Of a stretch of DNA of 64,000 bases, positions 42,564 through 53,329 are shown piece by piece. The stretch lies in assembly GCF_000196855.1 (NCBI RefSeq), contig NC_014319.1, positions 1,488,001-1,552,000 on the forward strand, read 5' to 3'. Within the stretch, counting starts at the first letter, position 1, and each line of letters starts with the position of its first letter. The translations under genes were made by a program, and so were the position numbers. This DNA is from Leuconostoc gasicomitatum LMG 18811 (GTDB taxonomy: Bacteria; Bacillota; Bacilli; Lactobacillales; Lactobacillaceae). The notes below the pieces were generated by a model, which saw only the letters and a list, made by a program, of their open reading frames with translations, did no database searches and was not told where the DNA came from.

Positions 42564-43085
42564 TCACAGCCACCAATTATAAATTTGTTCCGCAAAAAAC
42601 GGAGCATTATCTAATAACTCATTCAACTGATGTGTATTTAAAAACTGATCCTGTACCCAAACATTTGGTATAACTGACAGTACTTGTAAACTAAAAAACG
42701 CAATAACTATACCAATAACACCATATAGTAAAGCACCAAGTACACCATCAACCCAGCCTAATAACGGTATATGACGAATAACTTTTAAAGACCGCAGCAC
42801 ATAATGGCTAATGGCACCACCCAGCATCAATAAAATACAAAAACTAATGCCTGAAGCTAAAAATTGTGAGCCATGACTAACCAGATCTTGTGGTACACTC
42901 GTCCGAATAAACTGCCCGTCGACAAAATTTGATATAACTGTACCAAATGGCTTAGAAAATTTAATCGCAATATACCAAACCACAAGCCATAACGCTAACC
43001 GCAGCAAGCCATTTACAAACCCGTGACGGTATCCAGACAGCAACCATGCCAGCACAAAAAGTATCGCAATTCCTAATAATATCAT
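42564..43085 (-). CDS. cvpA: CvpA family membrane protein
   Basis: A 173-residue membrane protein with four to five helices and the family start ILLGIAILFVLAWLLSGYRHGFVNGLLRL and GWVDGVLGALLYGVIG block. Starts in an ATGA overlap with zapA. CvpA proteins are linked to envelope integrity and colicin V production in E. coli; the role here is not known. Order zapA-cvpA-mutS2 is as in Bacillus. Confidence 0.85.
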   Translation of the reverse strand: MILLGIAILFVLAWLLSGYRHGFVNGLLRLALWLVVWYIAIKFSKPFGTVISNFVDGQFIRTSVPQDLVSHGSQFLASGISFCILLMLGGAISHYVLRSLKVIRHIPLLGWVDGVLGALLYGVIGIVIAFFSLQVLSVIPNVWVQDQFLNTHQLNELLDNAPFFAEQIYNWWL

Positions 43086-43480
43086 AAGTTTGTTGTTCCT
43101 TGATTAAATAGCTTATCTGTTATGCGTGCTTGACTATCATGTTTGGCATCATCAATAATTGAGCCAATAGCGTTTTTAGGCTCACGCCTCTTTTTTAGCT
43201 TTTGCATGTTTTTTAATTCGGATTCTAATCTGGCAATTTTCGCCTGTAATTCATCAATTTCAGCTTGTTTGTGAAGCTGATCAGAAAGTGCATTAAATGT
43301 TAATAATACTGTTTGATCACCTTGAGATAAATTTGGTGCAACCGTTTTTATTTGAATCAATTGTTTATTGAATAAAGTTTCAGTGGCTTTAAAATGTGGC
43401 AAACTAGCATTGCCCGAAATTGTATAATTTTTGCCAGCCAAATTAGCCTTGTAATGCTTTTTCTCGTTTTGAGTAACCAT
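43082..43480 (-). CDS. zapA: cell division protein ZapA
   Basis: A 132-residue ZapA-like protein: globular head (YKANLAGKNYTISGNASLPHFKATETLFNKQL) and a coiled coil (about 65-95). It cross-links FtsZ filaments. AAGGG ribosome site. It is divergent from rnhC in the ancestral arrangement; a satellite now separates the two. Confidence 0.8.
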   Translation of the reverse strand: MVTQNEKKHYKANLAGKNYTISGNASLPHFKATETLFNKQLIQIKTVAPNLSQGDQTVLLTFNALSDQLHKQAEIDELQAKIARLESELKNMQKLKKRREPKNAIGSIIDDAKHDSQARITDKLFNQGTTNL

Positions 43481-43532: not shown

Positions 43533-43590
43533 AAAACTGATATACTTAATAGTATGCAAACAGTCATACAAGTTACACCATCACAATTAC
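43533..43590 (+). repeat. attL: 58-bp direct repeat of the rnhC 5' end
   Basis: Identical to 52,379-52,436 (reading AAAACTGATATACTTAATAG onward). It contains a TATACT -10-like hexamer, the ATG of rnhC and the first 12 codons. To its right the frame goes on for only a few codons ([17 protein letters not shown], stop at 43,607), so this is the displaced stub of rnhC at the left border of the satellite. Confidence 0.92.
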
Positions 43591-43650
43591 TGCTATATCA
43601 ACGTTAATAACACATTATAAAACATAATAAAAAAGAGATGGAACCAAAAG

Positions 43651-43671
43651 CTTTCCAAATCCTTTCCAAAA
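43651..43671 (+). repeat. integrase arm-type direct repeats, left end
   Basis: Two tandem copies of CTTTCCAAA spaced 11 bases, 60 bp inside attL. The same motif pair occurs inside attR at 52,298-52,317. Symmetric placement suggests arm-type binding sites of the tyrosine integrase. Confidence 0.55.
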
Positions 43672-43755
43672 TACTATAAAAACGCTGTAGAGGCACACAT
43701 CAGATGAAATCCGTGGATAACGTTTTTCATCTTTTTTAGTCATAATTTCAATTTT

Positions 43756-44655
43756 TTATCTGGTGTATTTAGATACTTTATCTAGCCAACTATCATTATG
43801 ATAAATTCTTTCGACCGCTAAGTCTCCTTGAATTACTTCCTTTTTTGATTTTTTTGAAAGTTCTTTCCAATTTTTTGAAAAGACATAAGTAGCATTTGCA
43901 TAAATTAAAGATTCCATCACAACGTAATGTTCATACACAAATACTTGATAACCCGCTAGTCCCTCCACTCCCTCATATATAGCTTTGGGATTTTGAGCAT
44001 TCAAAAAATCCAGTTTTCTCTTCGTATGGCTTATCCTAGATGGCTTGTAACCTAAATCATGATGTAAATAATTTTCAACCATATCCCAACTATCAGCAGG
44101 AAGTATCCGCCACTTTAGTTTCGGAACTTTTGGTTTTAACACCTGAAAATCTTCTTTAAATATATTTGCACCTTTAAATATACTCATAACCAAGTTTACA
44201 GCACGCTTAATTTTATCATAATCAGCAGCAGTATTTTTAAATGACTCTGTAATGATAACCATATCTTTTTTATCGTGCCTTATTAATGATAAATTATATT
44301 CATCGCCAAGGATATATTCTTTAACTTTAACTTCTCTTGTTCTGGATACTTCATGATAGCCATTATGATTATAGTTAGGAACGTCCCAAGAGTACGTTCT
44401 AAACTCTTTTCGCTCTGGCTTAACAATGCGCTCAAATCCAAATCTATTTTCATACGCCTTTTTATTTTTTGTAACAGGCAAGAAAGGGTTAACCAATGGT
44501 TCATTACCACCATATTCAATCAGTATTTTTTTAAGAGCCCCTAAACCTCCACTAAGGTCTTCAGATGTTATTCCCACAAATATTTTTTCATTCTCCTTGA
44601 AATCAGCCAAGTATTTCTTAGGACCAATTATGTAGTTATTTTTTGTAGTAATCAT
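43756..44655 (-). CDS. satellite cargo protein, unknown function (299 aa)
   Basis: I do not recognise this 299-residue protein. It is soluble, Lys- and Tyr-rich, with no membrane segment or signal peptide and no nucleotide-binding motif. Recurrent features are the aromatic pattern in its middle part (YSWDVPNYNHNGYHE) and a basic SHTKRKL patch. It is the last gene before attL, has its own GAGGAA ribosome site, and is separated from the head operon by a terminator at 44,743. That is the position where satellites keep cargo such as defence or virulence genes. It is undamaged while most neighbours are broken. A defence role is only an inference. Confidence 0.75.
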   Translation of the reverse strand: MITTKNNYIIGPKKYLADFKENEKIFVGITSEDLSGGLGALKKILIEYGGNEPLVNPFLPVTKNKKAYENRFGFERIVKPERKEFRTYSWDVPNYNHNGYHEVSRTREVKVKEYILGDEYNLSLIRHDKKDMVIITESFKNTAADYDKIKRAVNLVMSIFKGANIFKEDFQVLKPKVPKLKWRILPADSWDMVENYLHHDLGYKPSRISHTKRKLDFLNAQNPKAIYEGVEGLAGYQVFVYEHYVVMESLIYANATYVFSKNWKELSKKSKKEVIQGDLAVERIYHNDSWLDKVSKYTR

Positions 44656-44742
44656 TTTTTATATTCCTCATTGTTATATTAGTTTTATCCTAATACTTTT
44701 CACTTTAAATTACAATAAAAAATACGTAAATTTTTTATAAAC

Positions 44743-44780
44743 AAAAAAGCACCCAAACACAAATTAATGTGTCTGAGTGT
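44743..44780 (-). terminator. terminator at the end of the head-gene operon
   Basis: A 12-pair stem (CACTCAGACACA / TGTGTTTGGGTG with G-T pairs on the minus strand), 6-base loop, TTTTTT tail, 25 bases after the head-closure stop. Confidence 0.8.
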
Positions 44781-44806
44781 ATAGTCATTTTTTAAATTAT
44801 TATGTT

Positions 44807-45181
44807 TTAATCCGTATGATTTGTGAGTGTCAAAATGTGATAATCATTGGGCTCTGTCGCTCTTTGAATGTTATACTTTGTATTTTTATCATCATCAACA
44901 TGCAATACAATGCTAGTATCAAAATTAAAGGATTCAAAAGAGTCATTAGTTATTTTTCTCACTGCTAATTGAAAATCATATTTAGCGTCATAGCCCTCTA
45001 TACCTGCTGTACTAGTCATGTTTGTTAAATATACTGCTGCTGGTCTGCTCCACGTTTCTACTTGAACTGTTCCGCTCATTCCGTTTGGATAATCTACCCT
45101 TTTAGATTCTATGGCTGTTATCTTATGTGTAAACCGATAGGGGCTGTTTAATAATTTAGCTGACTTACTTTGATACGCCAT
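44807..45181 (-). CDS. phage head-closure / head-tail adaptor protein
   Basis: A 124-residue beta-rich protein, with the layout (RFTHKITAIESKRVDYPNGMSG, then a mid-protein Asn-Met-Thr-Ser segment) of small head-closure proteins. It overlaps the connector gene by one base and is the last gene of the head operon. Assignment is mostly by position after a gp6-like connector; intact. Confidence 0.6.
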   Translation of the reverse strand: MAYQSKSAKLLNSPYRFTHKITAIESKRVDYPNGMSGTVQVETWSRPAAVYLTNMTSTAGIEGYDAKYDFQLAVRKITNDSFESFNFDTSIVLHVDDDKNTKYNIQRATEPNDYHILTLTNHTD

Positions 45182-45471
45182 TATTCTCCCCCTTGATACA
45201 TATTTCTGATTGAATTAAGTAGTACCATGCTCTGAATCCCAAAGCCTGACTGTTCCACGTTACCAAAATATAAACTTGAGACAATACTTCTAACTGCTTG
45301 ATTAAAGATATTTTCATCAGTTCCTGATACAACGTCCGCCACCGTTTCACCTTTAACGGTTGTTGATACAATGTAGTCCTGTGCAAAATTGATTAGTGAT
45401 TGAATTTGTGCTGTTTCTGATATGTTTAAATGTAGCTCATTAATAATTGTGTCCGCTGTTACGATTGCCAT
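45181..45471 (-). CDS. head-tail connector protein (gp6-like)
   Basis: A 96-residue helical protein resembling HK97 gp6-like connectors: TADTIINELHLNISETAQIQSLINFAQDYI and the hydrophobic C-terminal helix SMVLLNSIRNMY. AAGGGGTG ribosome site before 45,471. It forms the ring under the portal in phages. Intact, downstream of the capsid gene. Confidence 0.75.
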   Translation of the reverse strand: MAIVTADTIINELHLNISETAQIQSLINFAQDYIVSTTVKGETVADVVSGTDENIFNQAVRSIVSSLYFGNVEQSGFGIQSMVLLNSIRNMYQGGE

Positions 45472-45561
45472 ATTTTCACCCCTTTTAATATAAATAAAAT
45501 CCTTCTTTTATTGCTCATATTTTGAGCTATGTACGCCCTAGATACGGCTAGGACTTTTTAA

Positions 45562-46988
45562 TTACTTACCTGAATCACCAAATGTAATAAATACACCAGC
45601 GTCTGAATCAGCTACCTTAGTGTCAAAGAAAACACCACCAACTGCTACGGTTGATAAGTTACGATTCTCTTGATAAGTGAAAATCATATTTTCATTGATA
45701 GCTTCAACAATGAACGCCTTAGCGTCACCAAAGAATGCTACTTTACCAGCTCCCAATACATCACTTGAAACTACTTCAACTGGATAACCACCGATTGACT
45801 TCTTTGTAGCGTCCGTAGCCAATGGTTGCAAAATGTATGCACCTGTTGAATCCTTAGCCTTATCAAGTTCACCAAACAATTCTGCTGTCATAATAAATGA
45901 CTTGTTAGTGTCTAGATAGTTCACAAATGAATCAACATTGTAAACGTCCTTAATGTCATCAATTGACTTTACTGCTTTAGGTGTGGCTGTCTTCAACAAT
46001 GCCCCCACCTTTTGCAAACGTGTCAAATCACGCATAGCTGTAATGTGTTGCAAAATAACACGTTGTGCTGACTTTGAGCTGTGAGCTAATTGATATGACA
46101 TTGGCAAGGCACCGCTATATAGCTTCAAATCAAAGTTCACTTCTTGAATTGCTGGGGCGTCTACTGAGACCGTGTCTGCGTTTTCTGCTGATACTTCTGT
46201 GAACCCTGCTGTTGCGTGCTTAACAACTGGAAGTGTGACGTTGTTGCTATCAACTGATACCGTATTAATCAATGACAATACACCAGTTGAGGCTTGTGGT
46301 TGGGGTATTGCTCGCTCAATAGCTCTTGTGGGATAATTGGCGCACCGTTTACCGTTGTAAGGTCACGCTTTTCAATTTTTCCCTCTAAATAAGCATTAAA
46401 GTTGCGTACTTCTTGTGATTCTGTGTCTTGTGCTTTGTTAAATGTTTGCATGTTTCTCTTTTCCCCTTGTTGAATGTTTGAATTTTCTTCTTGTGTCTCT
46501 TCTGTTTTTTCTGACATATCTAATTCTCTCTTAGCTACAATGTCCGTACCCTCATACGCTGGTACTACTGGTACCAATGAAATTTCTTGCAATGACTTTA
46601 ATTTTTTAATTGTTCTGTGTGTCTCATCTTGCCAATCGTCATCTTGAACAATGAAACCAAAACTCATTTTGTTTATGATTCCGTCTTGCACCAATTCAAA
46701 AATATGATCATCTGAGGGCAATAATTCCAAACTAAAAGACAAGCCTTTTTCATCAACATTTAGTGATAAATTTTTACCTGTCTTCCCTAGAACGTTATTA
46801 AAATCATGATTGTATAAAGCAAATACATTGGTTAAATCAACATCATCAAGTGCATGAACGTCAACCGTTTCAATGAATCCCATATTTTCACTAGGACTAT
46901 TAAATACAATTGCCTACCCACTCAATAAGTGTCTTTTTTCATCTGTCTTTGCTCTTATTTCAACTGTTTGTGTCAATGTGTCACTCAT
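45562..46988 (-). pseudogene. prohead protease / major capsid fusion gene, broken by an amber codon and a frameshift
   Basis: Translation starts at ATG 46,988 (8-bp overlap with the portal stop) and gives an HK97-type protease: GFIETVDVHALDDVDLTNVFALYNHDFNNVLG holds the catalytic His, and SMSFGFI-type sequence (KMSFGFIVQDDDW) the Ser. A TAG at 46,914-46,916 interrupts it at codon 25, where relatives have an aromatic residue (LLSG*AIVF). The frame then runs to 46,269, but the capsid sequence is in another frame (45,562-46,278); the shift is between about 46,281 and 46,320. The capsid part (SLINTVSVDSNNVTLPVVK to FITFGDSGK) is HK97-like. Protease and capsid were probably one polypeptide. Confidence 0.8.
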
Positions 46989-48041
46989 TTAAAACGCCTT
47001 TCTTAACTAAAATTGTATGTGCCTCATCTGCTGGCACAATACCAGTACCCACTAAATCAATAACTTGCTGAATCAGCTTGCTATTATCAAAATCAGTCAA
47101 TAGTCTGAGTTCTAACTCAATTGAATCACTAATCTTTGCATGTAATTCATTTAAAATGATTGATAGATAGTTATGAATCAGTGAATCTAAATATTGCTTT
47201 TCAATCATATCTACTGAACTTTGAGCGTCATCTTGTGAGGTTACCCCAACCTTTGAGCTTGGTATGTTAAAAGCTGTGGCAACACTATTTACTGAATCAC
47301 TGAGTGTCTTTGATAGATTAATCAGATTATCATTACTTGAATCATTGGTAAATAACTTTGATACCTTGACTTGTGAATCTGAAATAATCACGCTGTCATT
47401 TTCGTTAACATTCATAAACGCTTGTTTAATCTTTGCTTTTTTTCGTCTGTGGCGTCTGCCATTATCTCTAAATGTAGCTTAGGTGAGATAGATTCTTTTA
47501 GCACTGATTCAATCTGTTTGTTAGCTAGTTGTGACTGTTTTAACACTGTTTTAAGGCTCTCAATAGGTGAGTGACCGATATATCTTTCAATGCCGTATAT
47601 GCCCCGACTCATAACAAAAGCTAACACTTGAGAATCGTCATAAATTCCTGAATTGTAAGGCTCATCTCCACTAGTGTTATTAATTGTGTACGTGACTTTA
47701 CCTTTTTCATAATTGATAGTGACATCTGAATTATTAATCGCTGTAAGCCCTGTAACAACGCCATTAGCACCCTTTTGAATCAACATGTAAGCATTGCCGT
47801 CAATCAACAACGCGCGGTAAACATCTGTAAAATCTGTCTTGCTTAACATTTTTGATTGTCCGCCCGTGAATCGTACCGCATTCATATCATTACTAATTGT
47901 TGATACTGCCGATTGTAGCGCTGGCGTTACATTCTCTGCTTGCTCACCACTTGTAACTAATGTAAAGCCATTTTGTGGTACAAAAATAACGGGTTTCGTT
48001 GGTGAAATTCTTGAACGCTCTTCTTTTTTGAATAGTCCCAT
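46981..48041 (-). pseudogene. phage portal protein gene with frameshift
   Basis: A HK97-type portal in two frames: 47,412-48,041 (SRISPTKPVIFVPQNGFTL, DGNAYMLIQKGANGVVTGLTAI, HSPIESLKTVLKQSQLANKQIE) and 46,981-47,415 (VSKLFTNDSSNDNLINLSKTL, VATAFNIPSSKVGV). The frame changes at an A7 run (minus strand; T run at 47,437-47,443): adding one A gives a continuous DEKKAKIKQAF reading. Either a real one-base loss or a sequencing error in a homopolymer. Confidence 0.82.
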
Positions 48042-48052
48042 GACTCTCCTTT

Positions 48053-49877
48053 TTAAAATTTATATTGTTTGTAATACTCATCTATTTGTTGCTGATTCAT
48101 ACCACTGAAAAAATTGTTATCTGTATTATTTGTGTAGTCTTTCAAGGCATATTGTGACTCAAACATTGCTATCAGTAATGAATATAAGTTGTCTATCTTG
48201 TTGCTGTATGTATCTTTAACCACCTTGATACCATAATCATTTTTAGTTGTTCTGGCATTCAATAAAGCTGATTCCAGAACATTATCATCAGCAACAAAAT
48301 GTAACTTGTTTTCAACTAATAACTGTTGTGTAAATAGGCTTGGTGGCGACATAAAAGGCGTTGTCTGTTTCACTGGTAACATGATTAAATCTGGTAACGC
48401 TTTATCAATTGAATCAGCTATGTAATCAACTCCCTATGAATCATATAAAAATATTACGGTGTATTTTTCTTGTAGTTTTTGAATATGATTCACTAACCAA
48501 CTGATAACCTCATCTTCATCAATAATGCCGTTACCTGTTGCAATTGTGGCACGTCCTAATTTTTCGGCTTGTAAGTAGTCTATATCGTCATGTTCTGATT
48601 TCTTTAAAATGTCATGCTCTTGCTGATAGGTGGGTACAAACGTAGATGAATCAACATAATAATGACCGTCTGGCTGAACATATAACGTTGATATTGCTGT
48701 ATTATCACCAGTCTTTGAGAGGTCTAAGCCAACATAAACAGATTCAATCACGTTAGGAGGCAACTCATTAACTTTAGCTTGTTCAATTAATTGAGCCGTT
48801 GTAAAGCTCTCATCTGTGGCGCTATTAAGCACGAATCTGTTCATAGATTTGACCACGAACTCACTTGAACCACTATTTATATTTTTTTGTCGTTCAATCT
48901 TTAAGCCTGATATACGTGATTGTTTAATAGATTCAAGTTCTAGTAAGGGATTACTCTTGACCCACAAATCAAAATCATCTGTTAGTATTTCATCATCTGA
49001 ATCTTGTTCCCAAACTAGAACTAAATCACGTTCATAGTTATCAAAATCATTTAATTCAATAGCTTTTGAGTATTCTTGATAACATTCAAAAAAAAATACG
49101 GCTTTGAGGATTGCTCTGAGCCGTTGTGATTGCAATAAATTGTGAATTAGGTAGCCCCGTTTGTCCTGAGGTAACTGAATCTAGCCAATATTTATCTTTT
49201 ATAGTCAAAAGCATAGCCTCATCAAGTACAAAAGTTGTAAAATGTCGGCTGTCTATGGGTGTGCTTTTAGCTGAAAATTTATTCAATACTGAACTCGTTG
49301 CTGTTACTCTCATCTCTTGCTTATTAAACTCAACTCCCAACTCTTTAAATAAGCTATTAAATATCCCTTTTTCAAGTAGTTCAAAGTTGTATGACATATA
49401 ACGATACAAAACTTTTGTGTGTTCGCTGTCTAAGCTACCTAAGCCAATGTCTTTGCTGACACCTTTGGCAAAAAGTAATTGAAACATGAGATAAACAGAC
49501 AACACTTGTGACTTGCCTTGTGACCGTCCCATACTTATGTATGAATATTTGTATTTAACAGTACCGTCAACATGCCACCAGCCCACTACCTGACTTAAAA
49601 TAAATTTTTGAAATGATACAAGTTTAAAATTCTCACCAGTTGAGACATCTTTGAGTAGTGAGCTAAACTTGAGTATTTTAGTGACTAATTTAAGCTTATA
49701 AACATATTGAAATGTATCACTTTGTATAGTCTTCTGTAAGTCATTCATGTGGCGCTTAACTGCAAATTTTATTTTTTCACCTACAATAATCTCACCACTC
49801 AAAACTTTTAAACAATACTCAATGCTAGGCTCATTAGCATCGTATTTTTGAATGACATCACTATAATCATTCATCAT
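48053..49877 (-). pseudogene. terminase large subunit gene, frameshift plus amber codon
   Basis: The large terminase packages DNA into the head. The N-terminal part (to 49,086) has a P-loop-like SYISMGRSQGKSQVLS and Walker B FTTFVLDEAML. The frame breaks at a T9 run on the minus strand (A run at 49,088-49,096): removing one T continues ...SRIFFECYQEYSKAIEL. The second part (49,135-48,434) includes the nuclease motif VYVGLDLSKTGDNTAIS and stops at TAG 48,434-48,436, after which the same frame runs on to 48,053 (GVDYIADSIDKAL...). One indel and one nonsense change together disable it. Confidence 0.85.
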
Positions 49878-50343
49878 CTGAGAACATCTCCATTAGCTTT
49901 TGAGCTGAGTCTTCTGAATCAACTTGTGCTAAATTAATTAATGAGGCTCTTGAGGCTGGACTGAATCCCAAAGCACTAGAGGCGCTTAATATTTCCGTTG
50001 TTGTATTTGTGATAATATCAACGGCTGGATTCTTTTTGATATATCCTTTTGTCTCATACACTGAGTCAACTTCATCTAGGCTCTTGTAGCTATCTTTTAG
50101 TGCTTGTATATTAATCACTAAAGTTAAAAGAATGCTTGAATCCGTGTTATTTATGTAGCCTGACTTGTTTAACTGTTTAGCTAGATATTCATACGAGATA
50201 CGTGTGCTTTCATCTGTGATAAACTCTGGCGCTTGAGTACCTAATTCATCAAATGAGCCGTTTAAATCTTTAACTTTCTCAGTTCGTTCACGTTGGTATT
50301 TTCTAGCGCCCTTTGAATCATCTAACTTAATATTTTGTGTCAT
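49867..50343 (-). CDS. terminase small subunit, P27 family
   Basis: A 158-residue protein with the P27-type small terminase pattern: helical middle, ending in SALGFSPASRASLINLAQVD, and starting from an AAGGGGGAG ribosome site. It recognises pac/cos DNA for packaging. In satellites the small terminase is what redirects packaging to satellite DNA. Intact, overlapping the large subunit by 11 bp. Confidence 0.82.
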   Translation of the reverse strand: MTQNIKLDDSKGARKYQRERTEKVKDLNGSFDELGTQAPEFITDESTRISYEYLAKQLNKSGYINNTDSSILLTLVINIQALKDSYKSLDEVDSVYETKGYIKKNPAVDIITNTTTEILSASSALGFSPASRASLINLAQVDSEDSAQKLMEMFSDDE

Positions 50344-50416
50344 TATTCTCCCCCTTTGTTTGTTTTTTCGTGATTATATGTTATAATTTATTTATAATAA
50401 AAGTAATTAGATAGCC

Positions 50417-50451
50417 CGTCCACAAAGGATAGGGCTATTTTTGTGTGACCA
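50417..50451 (+). terminator. hairpin upstream of terS
   Basis: ATAGCCC / GGGCTAT stem with a 14-base loop and TTTTT on the plus strand. Orientation is opposite to the head genes, so it may stop plus-strand transcription entering them. Confidence 0.5.
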
Positions 50452-50871
50452 TTTTTTTATAGTTGAGTGAACACTAGCTATCAGAAAAAACATTAATATA
50501 ACGCCCCCACTATAAATTTTATGTACGCTGAGAGGAAATCTAGAAGGAAACCCCCTCAACATTGTTTAACCGTGTAAAAAACCAACATGCCATCGCACAA
50601 AAGCGCGACATATCAGAAAACTTTAGAAAATAAAAAGATAGAATAAAGAAAATAAGTCTTTTGCTGTATTCAACAAGTTACATGAATCATGTTGACCCAT
50701 TAAATTACACTTCGTTCAATCAATATATTTCATCAAGTCATTTCGATCAATTCATCTCAATTAACTCATACGTTTGCGCACTACGTATTCACATCAATCA
50801 ACTCATCTCAATCAAATCGTGTCATCAATATACTTACTAACTGTTAGTAAATAATGCTCATAAGTCAATAA
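50452..50871. other. non-coding stretch with degenerate TCAATCAA/TCATCTCAAT repeats
   Basis: No gene is seen. At 50,712-50,832 a short AT-rich unit recurs in degenerate form, the clearest copies being ATCAATTCATCTCAATTAAC and ATCAACTCATCTCAATCAAA. In an intact satellite this part lies between terS and the replication genes. It could be an origin or recognition site, or plain low-complexity sequence. Confidence 0.4.
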
Positions 50872-50903
50872 TTCAGACTATTTTTTATCTAGGGCTGAAT
50901 TGA

Positions 50904-51671
50904 TTAGGCTACTTTTGTTTTTCGATTAGCAACACTGATTCTTTCGTCGTTGAACCAATGAATATACTTGGACACATCTAAAATTAGATGAGCAATCGAT
51001 GGAAACCGGAATTGATAAATCATTTCACGCTTTAATAGTGAGTGGAAACTTTCAATTTTTGCATGATCGTATGGATGCCCTAGCGTTGAATACGAATGAT
51101 CAATTTTGTGTCGATTTAACAAATTTTCAAAGCCAAAACTAGTGAACTGACTGCCCATATCAGTGTGTCAATAATTTGGTTTTTTATGGGTTGACAGCGC
51201 TCTTTGTAGTGTTGTAACTACTAATTTGGTATCCATCGTGGCACTGATTTGATGGGCTAATATCTGATGCGTTCGTAAATCTAAAGTCGACGCTAAATAA
51301 ACCCACTGACCATTACTCAACTTTAAATAAGTGATGTCCATGCTCCAGGCATTGGCTTCTGGTAAATGCCTGATTAAGTTGAGACGTTGACAATAATCAA
51401 CGGTTGTCGTTGGTTTGTTAAACCGACGACTCATAACAGAGTATATGCCAGCTTCTCGCATTAAACGACGAACTCGGTTGGTCCCATGATGAAAATTCAG
51501 ATCAGCTAATGCTAGTCGCAGACGTGGCTCCCCATAAGCGCGGTGGTTATTTTGCCAAATATCATGCAATAAAGCTTTTAACATCGTATCTTCGCGGTAC
51601 CCCTTGGGCTCGACATAGTGAACCCAATCTAAGTAAGTACTTTTAGGTATTTTGAGCAGTCGAAGCACCAT
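50904..51671 (-). pseudogene. IS3-family transposase orfB with in-frame stop
   Basis: The DDE integrase domain is recognisable: WSMDITYLKLSNGQWVYL (first Asp), HTDMGSQFTS (second Asp), and AKIESFHSLLKREM (Glu). A TGA at 51,168-51,170 stands in frame three codons before the second Asp motif. The part preceding the stop begins near 51,671 and shows the HTH_21-like MLKALLHDIWQNNHRAYGEPRL. Usual expression needs a -1 frameshift from orfA. Confidence 0.85.
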
Positions 51672-51776
51672 ACATAATGAGTTTAAAATGCTGTTTTAGC
51701 AATGACTGGGCAATAGGAAAATGGGTCTTACGTGTTACTTGCGATGTTCGCCTAGTAAAACGGCCGCAATTGCTTG

Positions 51777-52028
51777 TCAGGCTAAGCGTGATAAAATTTC
51801 ATTTTCTTCTTTGAGACGTGCAACTTCTTTCTGCATCGCATTAAATTCAGCACGAGTCACTGGTTGACCCTTAACATCAGTGCCAACGATTTGGGATTTT
51901 TTGACCCAACTCGTGGCGGTTTGCACAGCCAAGTGGTATTCATTGGCTAGAGAATTAGCAGAACGTCCCTCGTTATACAAGGCAACAATCGATGATTTAA
52001 ATTCTGTTGCGTATCGCGTAGCATTCAT
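51777..52028 (-). CDS. IS3-family transposase orfA (helix-turn-helix)
   Basis: An 83-residue protein: RYATEFKSSIVALYNEGRSANSLANEYHLAVQTATSWVKK is the helix-turn-helix, followed by a leucine-zipper-like EFNAMQKEVARLKEENEILSRL. Normal orfA size is about 90-100. It reads into orfB by frameshifting in related elements. Confidence 0.85.
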   Translation of the reverse strand: MNATRYATEFKSSIVALYNEGRSANSLANEYHLAVQTATSWVKKSQIVGTDVKGQPVTRAEFNAMQKEVARLKEENEILSRLA

Positions 52029-52097
52029 AATATAAAAAACTCCTATACTTGATTATCTCGGATTATGCCCTAGAAATAAAGCAGTCCGAATTTTCAG

Positions 52098-52280
52098 TAT
52101 ACGAGCAAAGTGTTTGCACACATGATGAGGCATCACTTTGCTACCATTGCAATTGATAAAGGAGCCAACATACGTGATGTGGCTAACTATTTAGGACATG
52201 AAAATATAGACATGACCATATTATACAATCTTGGTACATCAGAGGGAATGAAAAAACTTTCAAATACCATAAATGTATAG
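52098..52280 (+). pseudogene. C-terminal remnant of a tyrosine integrase
   Basis: Sixty codons in frame to TAG 52,278: HMMRHHFATIAIDKGAN holds the second Arg and the His-box, [10 protein letters not shown] the later His, and TILYNLGT the active-site Tyr. The N-terminal and central parts are missing and the sequence begins at the IS end. Orientation is toward attR, as expected for the integrase of the satellite. Confidence 0.85.
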
Positions 52281-52297
52281 CAGTAAAATCCGAACAT

Positions 52298-52317
52298 CCT
52301 TTCCAAAACCTTTCCAC
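52298..52317 (+). repeat. integrase arm-type direct repeats, right end
   Basis: Two tandem copies of CCTTTCCA(A/C)AA, matching the pair near attL, between the integrase stop and attR. Confidence 0.55.
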
Positions 52318-52378
52318 AAAACCTAACTTTTTAGAAATTAGGAGGCTTGAAACCCCTTTGTTATCCACCTCAACCATG

Positions 52379-52436
52379 AAAACTGATATACTTAATAGTA
52401 TGCAAACAGTCATACAAGTTACACCATCACAATTAC
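52379..52436 (+). repeat. attR: 58-bp direct repeat at the start of rnhC
   Basis: Identical to attL (43,533-43,590). It recreates the -10-like TATACT, ATG and first 12 codons of rnhC, so the coding sequence of the target is preserved. Confidence 0.92.
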
Positions 52437-53329
52437 AAAAAATGGTAACATTTTACAAACAAGCTAGCACACCGCGCTTACCTAATGGTGCTATTTTTGC
52501 AGCAAAAAACAACAATGCATCAATTATTGGCTATAAATCTGGCAAAGTATTATTTCAAGGGTTGGGATTTGCTCAAGAAGCGGCACTTTGGCAAACTAGC
52601 ACTGTTTCGACTGCCGCCAAAGCGATTGGCAAAAAATCAACAACTCCTGGCGTTAATATACCAAATGATTTCTCAAATTGGTCAGTTCTTGGTTCCGACG
52701 AGGTCGGTGCAGGCGCCTATTTTGGACCATTAACAACTGCTGCCGTTTTTGTTGCCAAAGAAAATATCAGTTGGGTGCGTCAACTCGGAATTGCAGATTC
52801 AAAAACGCTAACTGACGCTAAGATGCGTCAAATTGCCCCTGACATCATAGCAAAACTACCACACCACGTTGTTAATTTAATGCCTGAAAAATATAATATC
52901 TTGCAAAAAAACAACAATGTGAATCAAATGAAAGCCATCTCTCACAATTTCGCTCTTGGAAAAGTATTAGAAAAAATTGCTCCCACCGTTCCTACTGGTA
53001 TATTAATTGATCAATTTGCACAAGAAAGTACTTATTTTAAATATTTAAATAACGCTAACCAATCAAACATTGTACAACAAAATGTCTATTTCACAACTAA
53101 AGGTGAGCAATATCATCTTAGTGTTGCTGCAGCCTCAATTTTAGCACGTGTTGTTGAGTTAGACTCGCTTGACAAGCTAAGTGATGAAGCAGGCATGCGT
53201 TTGCCCATTGGCGCAGGTAAAGCAGTTGATATGGTAGCTGCTCAATTGCTACAACAGGGCGCTGATTTAAATCACTATGCTAAGTTGCACTTTGCTAATA
53301 CATTGAAAGCTGAAAAATTAAAGCGTTGA
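52400..53329 (+). CDS. rnhC: ribonuclease HIII
   Basis: A 309-residue RNase HIII: an N-terminal TBP-like domain ([20 protein letters not shown], 1-90) and the catalytic domain with [14 protein letters not shown] (Asp-Glu) and [12 protein letters not shown]. It cuts RNA in RNA-DNA hybrids. I take ATG 52,400 because the displaced copy at attL begins there in the same context. The satellite supplies in-frame starts upstream (TTG 52,358, 12 bases after AGGAGG, and ATG 52,376), so an extended form is possible. Originally divergent from zapA. Confidence 0.93.

Follow-up and report, generated by a model that had tools for sequence, protein, structure and literature searches.

A probable remnant of a capsid-forming phage satellite at the start of rnhC in Leuconostoc gasicomitatum LMG 18811

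In the genome of Leuconostoc gasicomitatum LMG 18811 (a single contig of 1,954,080 bp) an 8.8-kb insert separates zapA from rnhC, and the question raised by this locus is what kind of mobile element the insert represents. The window analyzed here is a 64-kb stretch of that genome. Unlabeled coordinates refer to the window; G labels denote genomes and L labels denote loci or contigs of this analysis. A first interpretation (the sequence-only reading) had described an 8,846-bp insertion with identical 58-bp ends made of the rnhC start, an integrase remnant at one end, and a head-only gene set lacking tail and lysis genes, and had called it a capsid-forming satellite. These structural observations were reproduced and the satellite type stood. 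Not seen in that reading was that the copy is no longer a working one: three head genes were broken and most of the integrase was gone. The insert is very probably the remnant of a capsid-forming phage satellite. This type of element is already known; the insert adds a dead member at an rnhC site.

Structure and decay of the insert

The insert was bounded by a 58-bp direct repeat, 100% identical between the left attachment (att) core, attL (43533–43590), and the right core, attR (52379–52436), both on the plus strand, with a start-to-start spacing of 8,846. The left copy began 53 bp from the start of the left neighboring gene (43082–43480, minus strand), a cell-division gene which we, like the sequence-only reading, take to be zapA-like. 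The right copy spanned the start of rnhC (52400–53329, plus strand; RNase HIII, PF01351 E = 4.4e-41 and PF11858).

The head genes formed an operon on the minus strand and were identified by PHROGs and Pfam. The small terminase gene terS (P27 family; 49867–50343; PF05119 E = 1.7e-13, TIGR01558 E = 2.8e-15) was open. Frameshifts or stops had split the next three genes. The large terminase gene terL was in three pieces: an ATPase-containing first piece (49086–49877; PF03354 E = 1.1e-11, phrog_4914 E = 7.4e-34), a second piece (48434–49135; phrog_9 E = 2.1e-27), and a third piece (48053–48382; phrog_9 E = 9.5e-10). The portal gene was in two pieces, N-terminal (47412–48041; PF04860 E = 2.7e-13) and C-terminal (46981–47415; phrog_5929 and phrog_12). 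The protease-capsid gene was in at least two, comprising an S78 protease part (46269–46883; PF04586 E = 1.7e-26) and an HK97-type major capsid part (45562–46278; PF05065 E = 4.6e-13). In L099, a metagenome relative described below, the counterparts were single open reading frames (ORFs) of 607 aa (terL), 351 aa (portal), and 521 aa (protease-capsid).

Two further genes were open. The head-tail connector Ad1 gene (45181–45471) matched phrog_40 (E = 0.0016) and TIGR01560 (E = 0.012, below the cut-off of that model). The gene at the head-closure position (44807–45181) had no PHROGs or NCBIfam match and was named from its position and from the L099 gene at the same position (75% amino acid identity). 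A terminator closed the operon on the same strand (44743–44792; hairpin z = -5.73, then a T run); L099 had a terminator at the same place (z = -8.09), and the window-L099 alignment ended at L099 position 9819.

At the other end of the operon a 1,253-bp insertion sequence (IS), overlooked in the sequence-only reading, occupied positions 50855–52107 on the minus strand. It carried HTH_Tnp_1, HTH_21, and rve domains, its second transposase frame was split, and we take it to belong to the IS3 family. Its ends were set by comparison with other genomic copies, to within about 2 bp, with the last base placed by eye. The triplets flanking the IS differed by eye, showing no target duplication, so that the IS insertion or a later event probably came with a deletion. 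Immediately beyond the IS began the integrase remnant, the C-terminal 56 aa of a tyrosine integrase (52110–52280, plus strand; PF00589, Phage_integrase, E = 5.7e-10, profile positions 129–166 of 172). The rest of the integrase was absent, as was any early region.

The core held TGATATACT (52384–52392, plus strand), which we take to be the extended -10 promoter element of rnhC, with the rnhC start codon 7 nt past it. In all 19 genus genomes, the window genome and G004 included, TGNTATACT or TGNTATAAT lay 6–7 nt before the rnhC ATG (spacing at L018 was read by eye, automated scoring being wrong there), a spacing that suggests a leaderless mRNA. Because both cores contain the same extended -10 element and start codon, insertion leaves rnhC with its promoter and first codons, and the gene probably survives and stays expressed. 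The insertion swaps solely the DNA upstream of the core, so that any rnhC -35 element is exchanged, and it supplies an extra in-frame ATG at 52376. As the element carries a copy of the promoter, the rnhC promoter and start codon would form an attachment site that spares the host gene.

The 64 kb contained just two copies of CTTTCCAAANCCTTTCCA (43651–43668 and 52299–52316, both plus strand), one lying about 60 bp inward of each core; with up to two mismatches allowed, 0.05 matches were expected. From their placement these are probably arm-type integrase sites. At the right end, 26 bp running into the core (52360–52385) recurred upstream of rnhC in G003 with a single mismatch (L046:1883–1908; 25 of 26 positions) and in part in G016; the nearest species, G005 and G007, lacked them. 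This match could be either a former-host relic in the element or the scar of an element lost there.

Empty junctions and near-identical copies

The sequence-only reading had advised a search for empty rnhC-zapA junctions, and these were common. In 15 of the 17 other genus genomes a zapA homologue lay no more than 1.5 kb from rnhC; the junction was bare, with a gap of 51–70 bp, in 11 of the 17, and the gap was about 0.6–0.7 kb in four (L017, L019, L020, L021). In G005 and G007 the window's left flank was followed directly by a single-copy core and rnhC. In G016 zapA lay 6.3 kb from rnhC, and no phage-type gene was seen in this interval by eye or with head, integrase, and tail queries. In G003 zapA was on a different contig and a tRNA-Glu adjoined rnhC. 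Altogether, no element at rnhC, including the full prophage at the same repeats that the sequence-only reading had named as its refuter, was recognized in these 17 genomes, among which G003 gave no clear call because its zapA lay on another contig. Past the tRNA-Glu of G003 (L046:981–1304) was a gene closely like, by eye, the first gene of the G008 satellite described below, which suggests a separate element in that tRNA-Glu.

The same insert was found in G004, a second genome of the species, with both sides present and 99.94% identity. It was on two contigs, both ending inside the IS; continuity across the IS was therefore seen in the window only. G004 is taken to be the genome of Leuconostoc inhae KCTC 3774 (AEMJ01000057.1), which is reported to be a mislabeled L. 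gelidum subsp. gasicomitatum very closely related to LMG 18811T and to contain numerous frameshifts that are most probably sequencing errors (excerpts of PMC4895993). Seven small gaps relative to the window were present on each G004 contig and the frameshifts differed, consistent with the sequencing errors reported in those excerpts. An IMG/VR contig, L098, was 99.985% identical to the window over 6,538 nt without a gap and had the same gene breaks; the breaks in the head genes are therefore probably real in this strain group.

Two prophages of 11.5 and 45.1 kb have been predicted in LMG 18811 (PMC4009412, in part). The smaller may be this element, in which case it was earlier counted as a prophage and, in the accessible part of that paper, not described as a satellite. 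The L. inhae-labeled genome is stated in excerpts of PMC4895993 to be without the two prophages of LMG 18811T. As G004 carries the rnhC element, the element is not among the two prophages said there to be absent, and this counts against its identity with the 11.5-kb prophage. PMC4895993 also lists, for strain KG16-1, a prophage spanning 17 locus tags (LEKG_1560–1576), which we estimate to have roughly the same relative map position.

Satellite remnant and rival origins

Capsid-forming phage-inducible chromosomal islands (cf-PICIs) encode their own capsid, protease, portal, connectors, TerS, TerL, and HNH, according to the available part of PMC10690885. All of these were found in the insert except HNH, with three of the genes broken. 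HNH sits just upstream of the head operon in L099 and the related contig L101, i.e., within the part lost here. No tail or lysis gene was recognized between the repeats among the ORFs by PHROGs or Pfam, the state expected of a cf-PICI and not of a full prophage. An integrase, truncated, and att repeats were present. A repressor and primase module, present in the 14,130- and 14,316-bp circles described below, is also a defining feature of cf-PICIs. This regulation and replication module was missing from the insert, and the gap borders the IS. The insert measured 8.8 kb including the IS, of 1.25 kb, compared with 13.9–14.6 kb for its relatives and an average cf-PICI size of 14 kb (PMC10803314, in part). 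Further cf-PICI features are given in PMC11389934, and a cf-PICI of lactic acid bacteria (LAB) in PMC13335696, both available in part. The insert thus resembles cf-PICIs, including pAF20 of Lacticaseibacillus rhamnosus (NZ_CP094953.1), in its own head set, its lack of tail genes, its integrase and att repeats, and its relatives of about 14 kb; it differs in being 8.8 kb, broken, and without HNH, primase, and regulators. The copy is accordingly filed as the remnant of a cf-PICI-like satellite and not as a cf-PICI.

Two other species of the genus, G008 and G009, contained head-only satellites with open head genes, which place such satellites in Leuconostoc and give the assignment of the insert good support. 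Their direct repeats were 13,894 and 14,558 bp apart, at the 3' ends of tRNA-Ser and tRNA-Glu genes, and an integrase gene came after the head genes. In G008, the one of the two scanned with Pfam, a repressor, a primase-polymerase, a VapE-type helicase, and an integrase were identified. A likeness to the end of the window's tmRNA had made tmRNA a candidate site for the G008 and G009 repeats; this was rejected, as ARAGORN identified tRNA-Ser and tRNA-Glu. In PLSDB, two records from other LAB (14,130 and 14,316 bp) were annotated as circles of the same layout; a third, of 14,527 bp, had no integrase annotated, in a gene table that is incomplete.

By contrast with G008 and G009, the insert uses the 5' end of rnhC. 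The sequence-only reading had considered this an unusual site unknown from the literature. Use of rnhC as an attachment site was likewise not found in the open-licence PubMed Central (PMC) literature, but targeting of a 5' end has precedent: the SpyCI islands of Streptococcus pyogenes also occupy the 5' end of mutL, likewise a conserved gene of DNA metabolism (PMC4689407, PMC4129442, PMC3430984, each in part). SpyCIM1 blocks mutL transcription, as stated in excerpts of PMC4689407 and PMC4129442. SpyCI separates its target from the promoter as a growth-phase switch, whereas the extended -10 element and ATG inside the rnhC repeat argue against such a separation.

The intact element would have encoded a tyrosine integrase and its own head and packaging genes together with, by analogy with its relatives, an early region for regulation and replication, and it would have relied on a helper phage for tails and lysis. 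For recombination its integrase would have used the 58-bp core, which covers the promoter and start codon of rnhC. An IS3-family element would have entered later, and the integrase N-terminus and early region would have been lost beside it, as suggested by what is missing and by the absence of a target duplication, while terL, portal, and protease-capsid would have been broken separately. With the integrase and head genes gone, the copy could presumably neither excise nor package itself.

Several points weigh against the satellite assignment. The early region, HNH, and most of the integrase are absent, and the life cycle is drawn from relatives. As possible near-clones of the window strain, G004 and L098 are weak as independent evidence, and no further copy of the element at rnhC was found in the genus and family searches. 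The integrase fragment had some match in 369 of 397 family genomes, and among its best 30 loci rnhC lay within the 1.5-kb flanks only in the window and G004; a search of viral contigs for the rnhC core, written as a degenerate pattern and matched exactly, gave nothing. In favor of a satellite, the insert did not match four tail proteins of the prophage in the same genome, although these queries came from one prophage and remote tail genes could escape them. A related terL was present in 151 of the 397 family genomes at 1e-30, and among 10 further terL loci opened in the family, six had a tape-measure match, three were without a clear call, and one (G185) was head-only, its head genes running into an integrase. 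At larger distance the head module is thus common to ordinary prophages.

These distant relatives bear on a first rival, that the insert is what deletions of tail, lysis, and early genes have left of a full temperate prophage. Phages, too, contained relatives of terL (618 records) and capsid (507 records), none reaching 60% identity, and the window copy has clearly lost DNA. However, the head operon ends at a terminator kept in L099, so that a deletion of tail and lysis genes would have had to stop there; no tail gene was found in the closest relatives; and early and tail regions would be expected on opposite sides, which would require two deletions. We regard a decayed prophage as improbable.

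Slightly less probable still is the capture of a head module from a plasmid-type satellite by an unrelated rnhC-targeting island, giving a mosaic that was never a functional satellite: DNA similarity to L099 and L101 is limited to the head operon and its leader (44743–50854) and the plasmid collection contained no DNA match to the left end with ORF299, the gene next to the left repeat, but the right border of similarity is the IS edge, which hides the original extent, and the integrative satellites seen in the genus are themselves built of an integrase joined to a head module.

Circular relatives and a structured RNA

The closest relatives of the remnant satellite's head operon were in IMG/VR. 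L099 (14,267 bp) and L101 (13,887 bp), from different metagenome records, contained the operon at 83–86% DNA identity to the window, and L107 (IMG/VR 2928638597_000002, from an isolate; 12,654 of 14,158 bp covered) encoded a capsid protein 74–75% identical to that of L099. The end-to-start seam of L099 was read through in L101, and that of L101 in L099, strongly indicating circular or circularly permuted DNA. L107 looks permuted, with terL crossing the seam; its last 1.5 kb lay outside the covered part. L099, L101, and the covered part of L107 had no match to tape-measure, Dit, Tal, tail-tube, or six integrase queries. Pfam or PHROGs scans of their other main ORFs likewise identified no integrase; they did identify HNH, an exonuclease, a ribbon-helix-helix protein, and, in L107, an Ltp-type surface lipoprotein (Lipoprotein_Ltp).

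A 313-aa protein of L101 had relatives in L099 (92%) and L107 (30%). A more distant relative (30% over about half the protein's length, E = 7e-7), encoded by an L. plantarum phage-plasmid of 34.5 kb, was the next larger gene after AAA ATPase and DUF5388 genes. The L101 protein is a putative replication initiator (plasmid Rep). A 1.26-kb stretch of L099 with few ORFs matched 84 plasmid records, 81 of them from Leuconostoc; none covered 80% of it and the best covered 40%. The stretch was 91% identical in L101, and only 192 nt of it, outside the structured RNA described below, matched L107. Unlike the insert, these three relatives appear to be circular, have no integrase found, and encode a putative plasmid Rep, and the closest capsid operons look from these features as if they reside on Leuconostoc plasmids. 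Against this, no PLSDB plasmid had this head type at more than 60% identity, the host of L099 and L101 is deduced from the non-coding block alone, and packaging is putative.

Head-only relatives of this plasmid-like kind were not met in the open-licence PMC literature. L099, L101, and L107 resemble the Flayer satellite of Streptomyces, as described in the available part of PMC10690885, in encoding heads without an integration module; by the same description Flayer differs in encoding a tail-fibre module for adsorption, and its helper is virulent.

Within the plasmid block, a non-coding RNA of about 530 nt was aligned in seven sequences: L099 (11740–12270), L101 (12200–12735), and five plasmids, namely L154 (1490–2030), L155 (115–655), L156 (1490–2030), L158 (790–1330), and L159 (790–1330). 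Six plasmid stretches had been taken from the 84 records; L157, whose match covers 21% of the query, was excluded. RNAalifold predicted 114 pairs. Changes on both sides were found in 39 of the 114, compared with 20.9 in shuffles (none of 500 reached 39) and 5–7 in the slid control, which leans in favor of the structure as this was derived from the same seven sequences. The number of further pair types equaled that in shuffles (77 and 77.0). One member folded 3.2 sd better than its shuffles. No Rfam family matched at threshold, and the non-coding block had no match in the window.

A broader scheme, to which we give slightly less than an even chance, would assign the insert's capsid operon to a lineage of Leuconostoc head-only satellites living mostly as plasmids, i.e., integrase-less 14-kb circles with a plasmid-type replicon, two of the three with the large RNA, that produce their own capsids and depend on a helper for tails and lysis only. 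The rnhC element would be an integrative offshoot, and the switch between plasmid and chromosome a swap of one module. The shared capsid operon links an integrative satellite to plasmid-like elements. If these are real satellites, the packaging of a capsid-making plasmid, and its helper, become direct questions. The plasmid-like relatives and the structured RNA merit more attention than the remnant at rnhC.

ORF299 and other loci

Between the left repeat and the head operon, ORF299 (43756–44655, minus strand; 299 aa) had no Pfam, NCBIfam, or PADLOC match. Of 251 genomes searched, five others had homologues (partial in two), as did eight plasmid records. In three of the seven contexts opened they adjoined type III restriction-modification genes or a large helicase gene: L049 lay directly after type III restriction-modification genes (Pfam, PADLOC), L050 lay after the same Res gene (96% identical), and L141 followed a 4.7-kb gene annotated as a DEAD/DEAH helicase. 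L051, L053, and L142 (whose gene table is incomplete) had no match to the Res or helicase gene, and L052, the seventh context, gave no clear call. ORF299 may, at a guess, be defence-associated cargo of unknown family; as a known defence gene it was rejected, having no PADLOC model. Searches of viral contigs with the integrase fragment and ORF299 gave 7 and 10 candidate stretches, none of which was confirmed.

A scan of genome contigs with the L099 capsid confirmed one of 14 stretches, in the L. inhae KCTC 3774 record. The viral-contig loci L100 (4.0 kb, partial, 84%), L108, and L109 (both 33%) were set aside. L102 (5,285 bp, IMG/VR) contained only part of terL, portal, protease-capsid, and connectors, and both of its ends repeated the same connector gene; it could be either a circular fragment or an assembly artefact.

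The LMG 18811 genome also contained a tailed prophage (G000:C1:1608600–1647000; L065–L067) with a serine recombinase, located between comG-type genes; its Dit was identified by Pfam and the remainder by eye. It is a possible tail donor, and nothing points to a helper role.

Plasmid p1 of Weissella confusa (NZ_CP049098.1, L106; 31.6 kb) had no tail genes annotated in its PLSDB gene table, which is incomplete. It is perhaps a larger tail-less, lysis-positive element, and its annotated genes included a head operon, a holin, a lysozyme, a Dam-type methyltransferase, and a FokI-like restriction gene.

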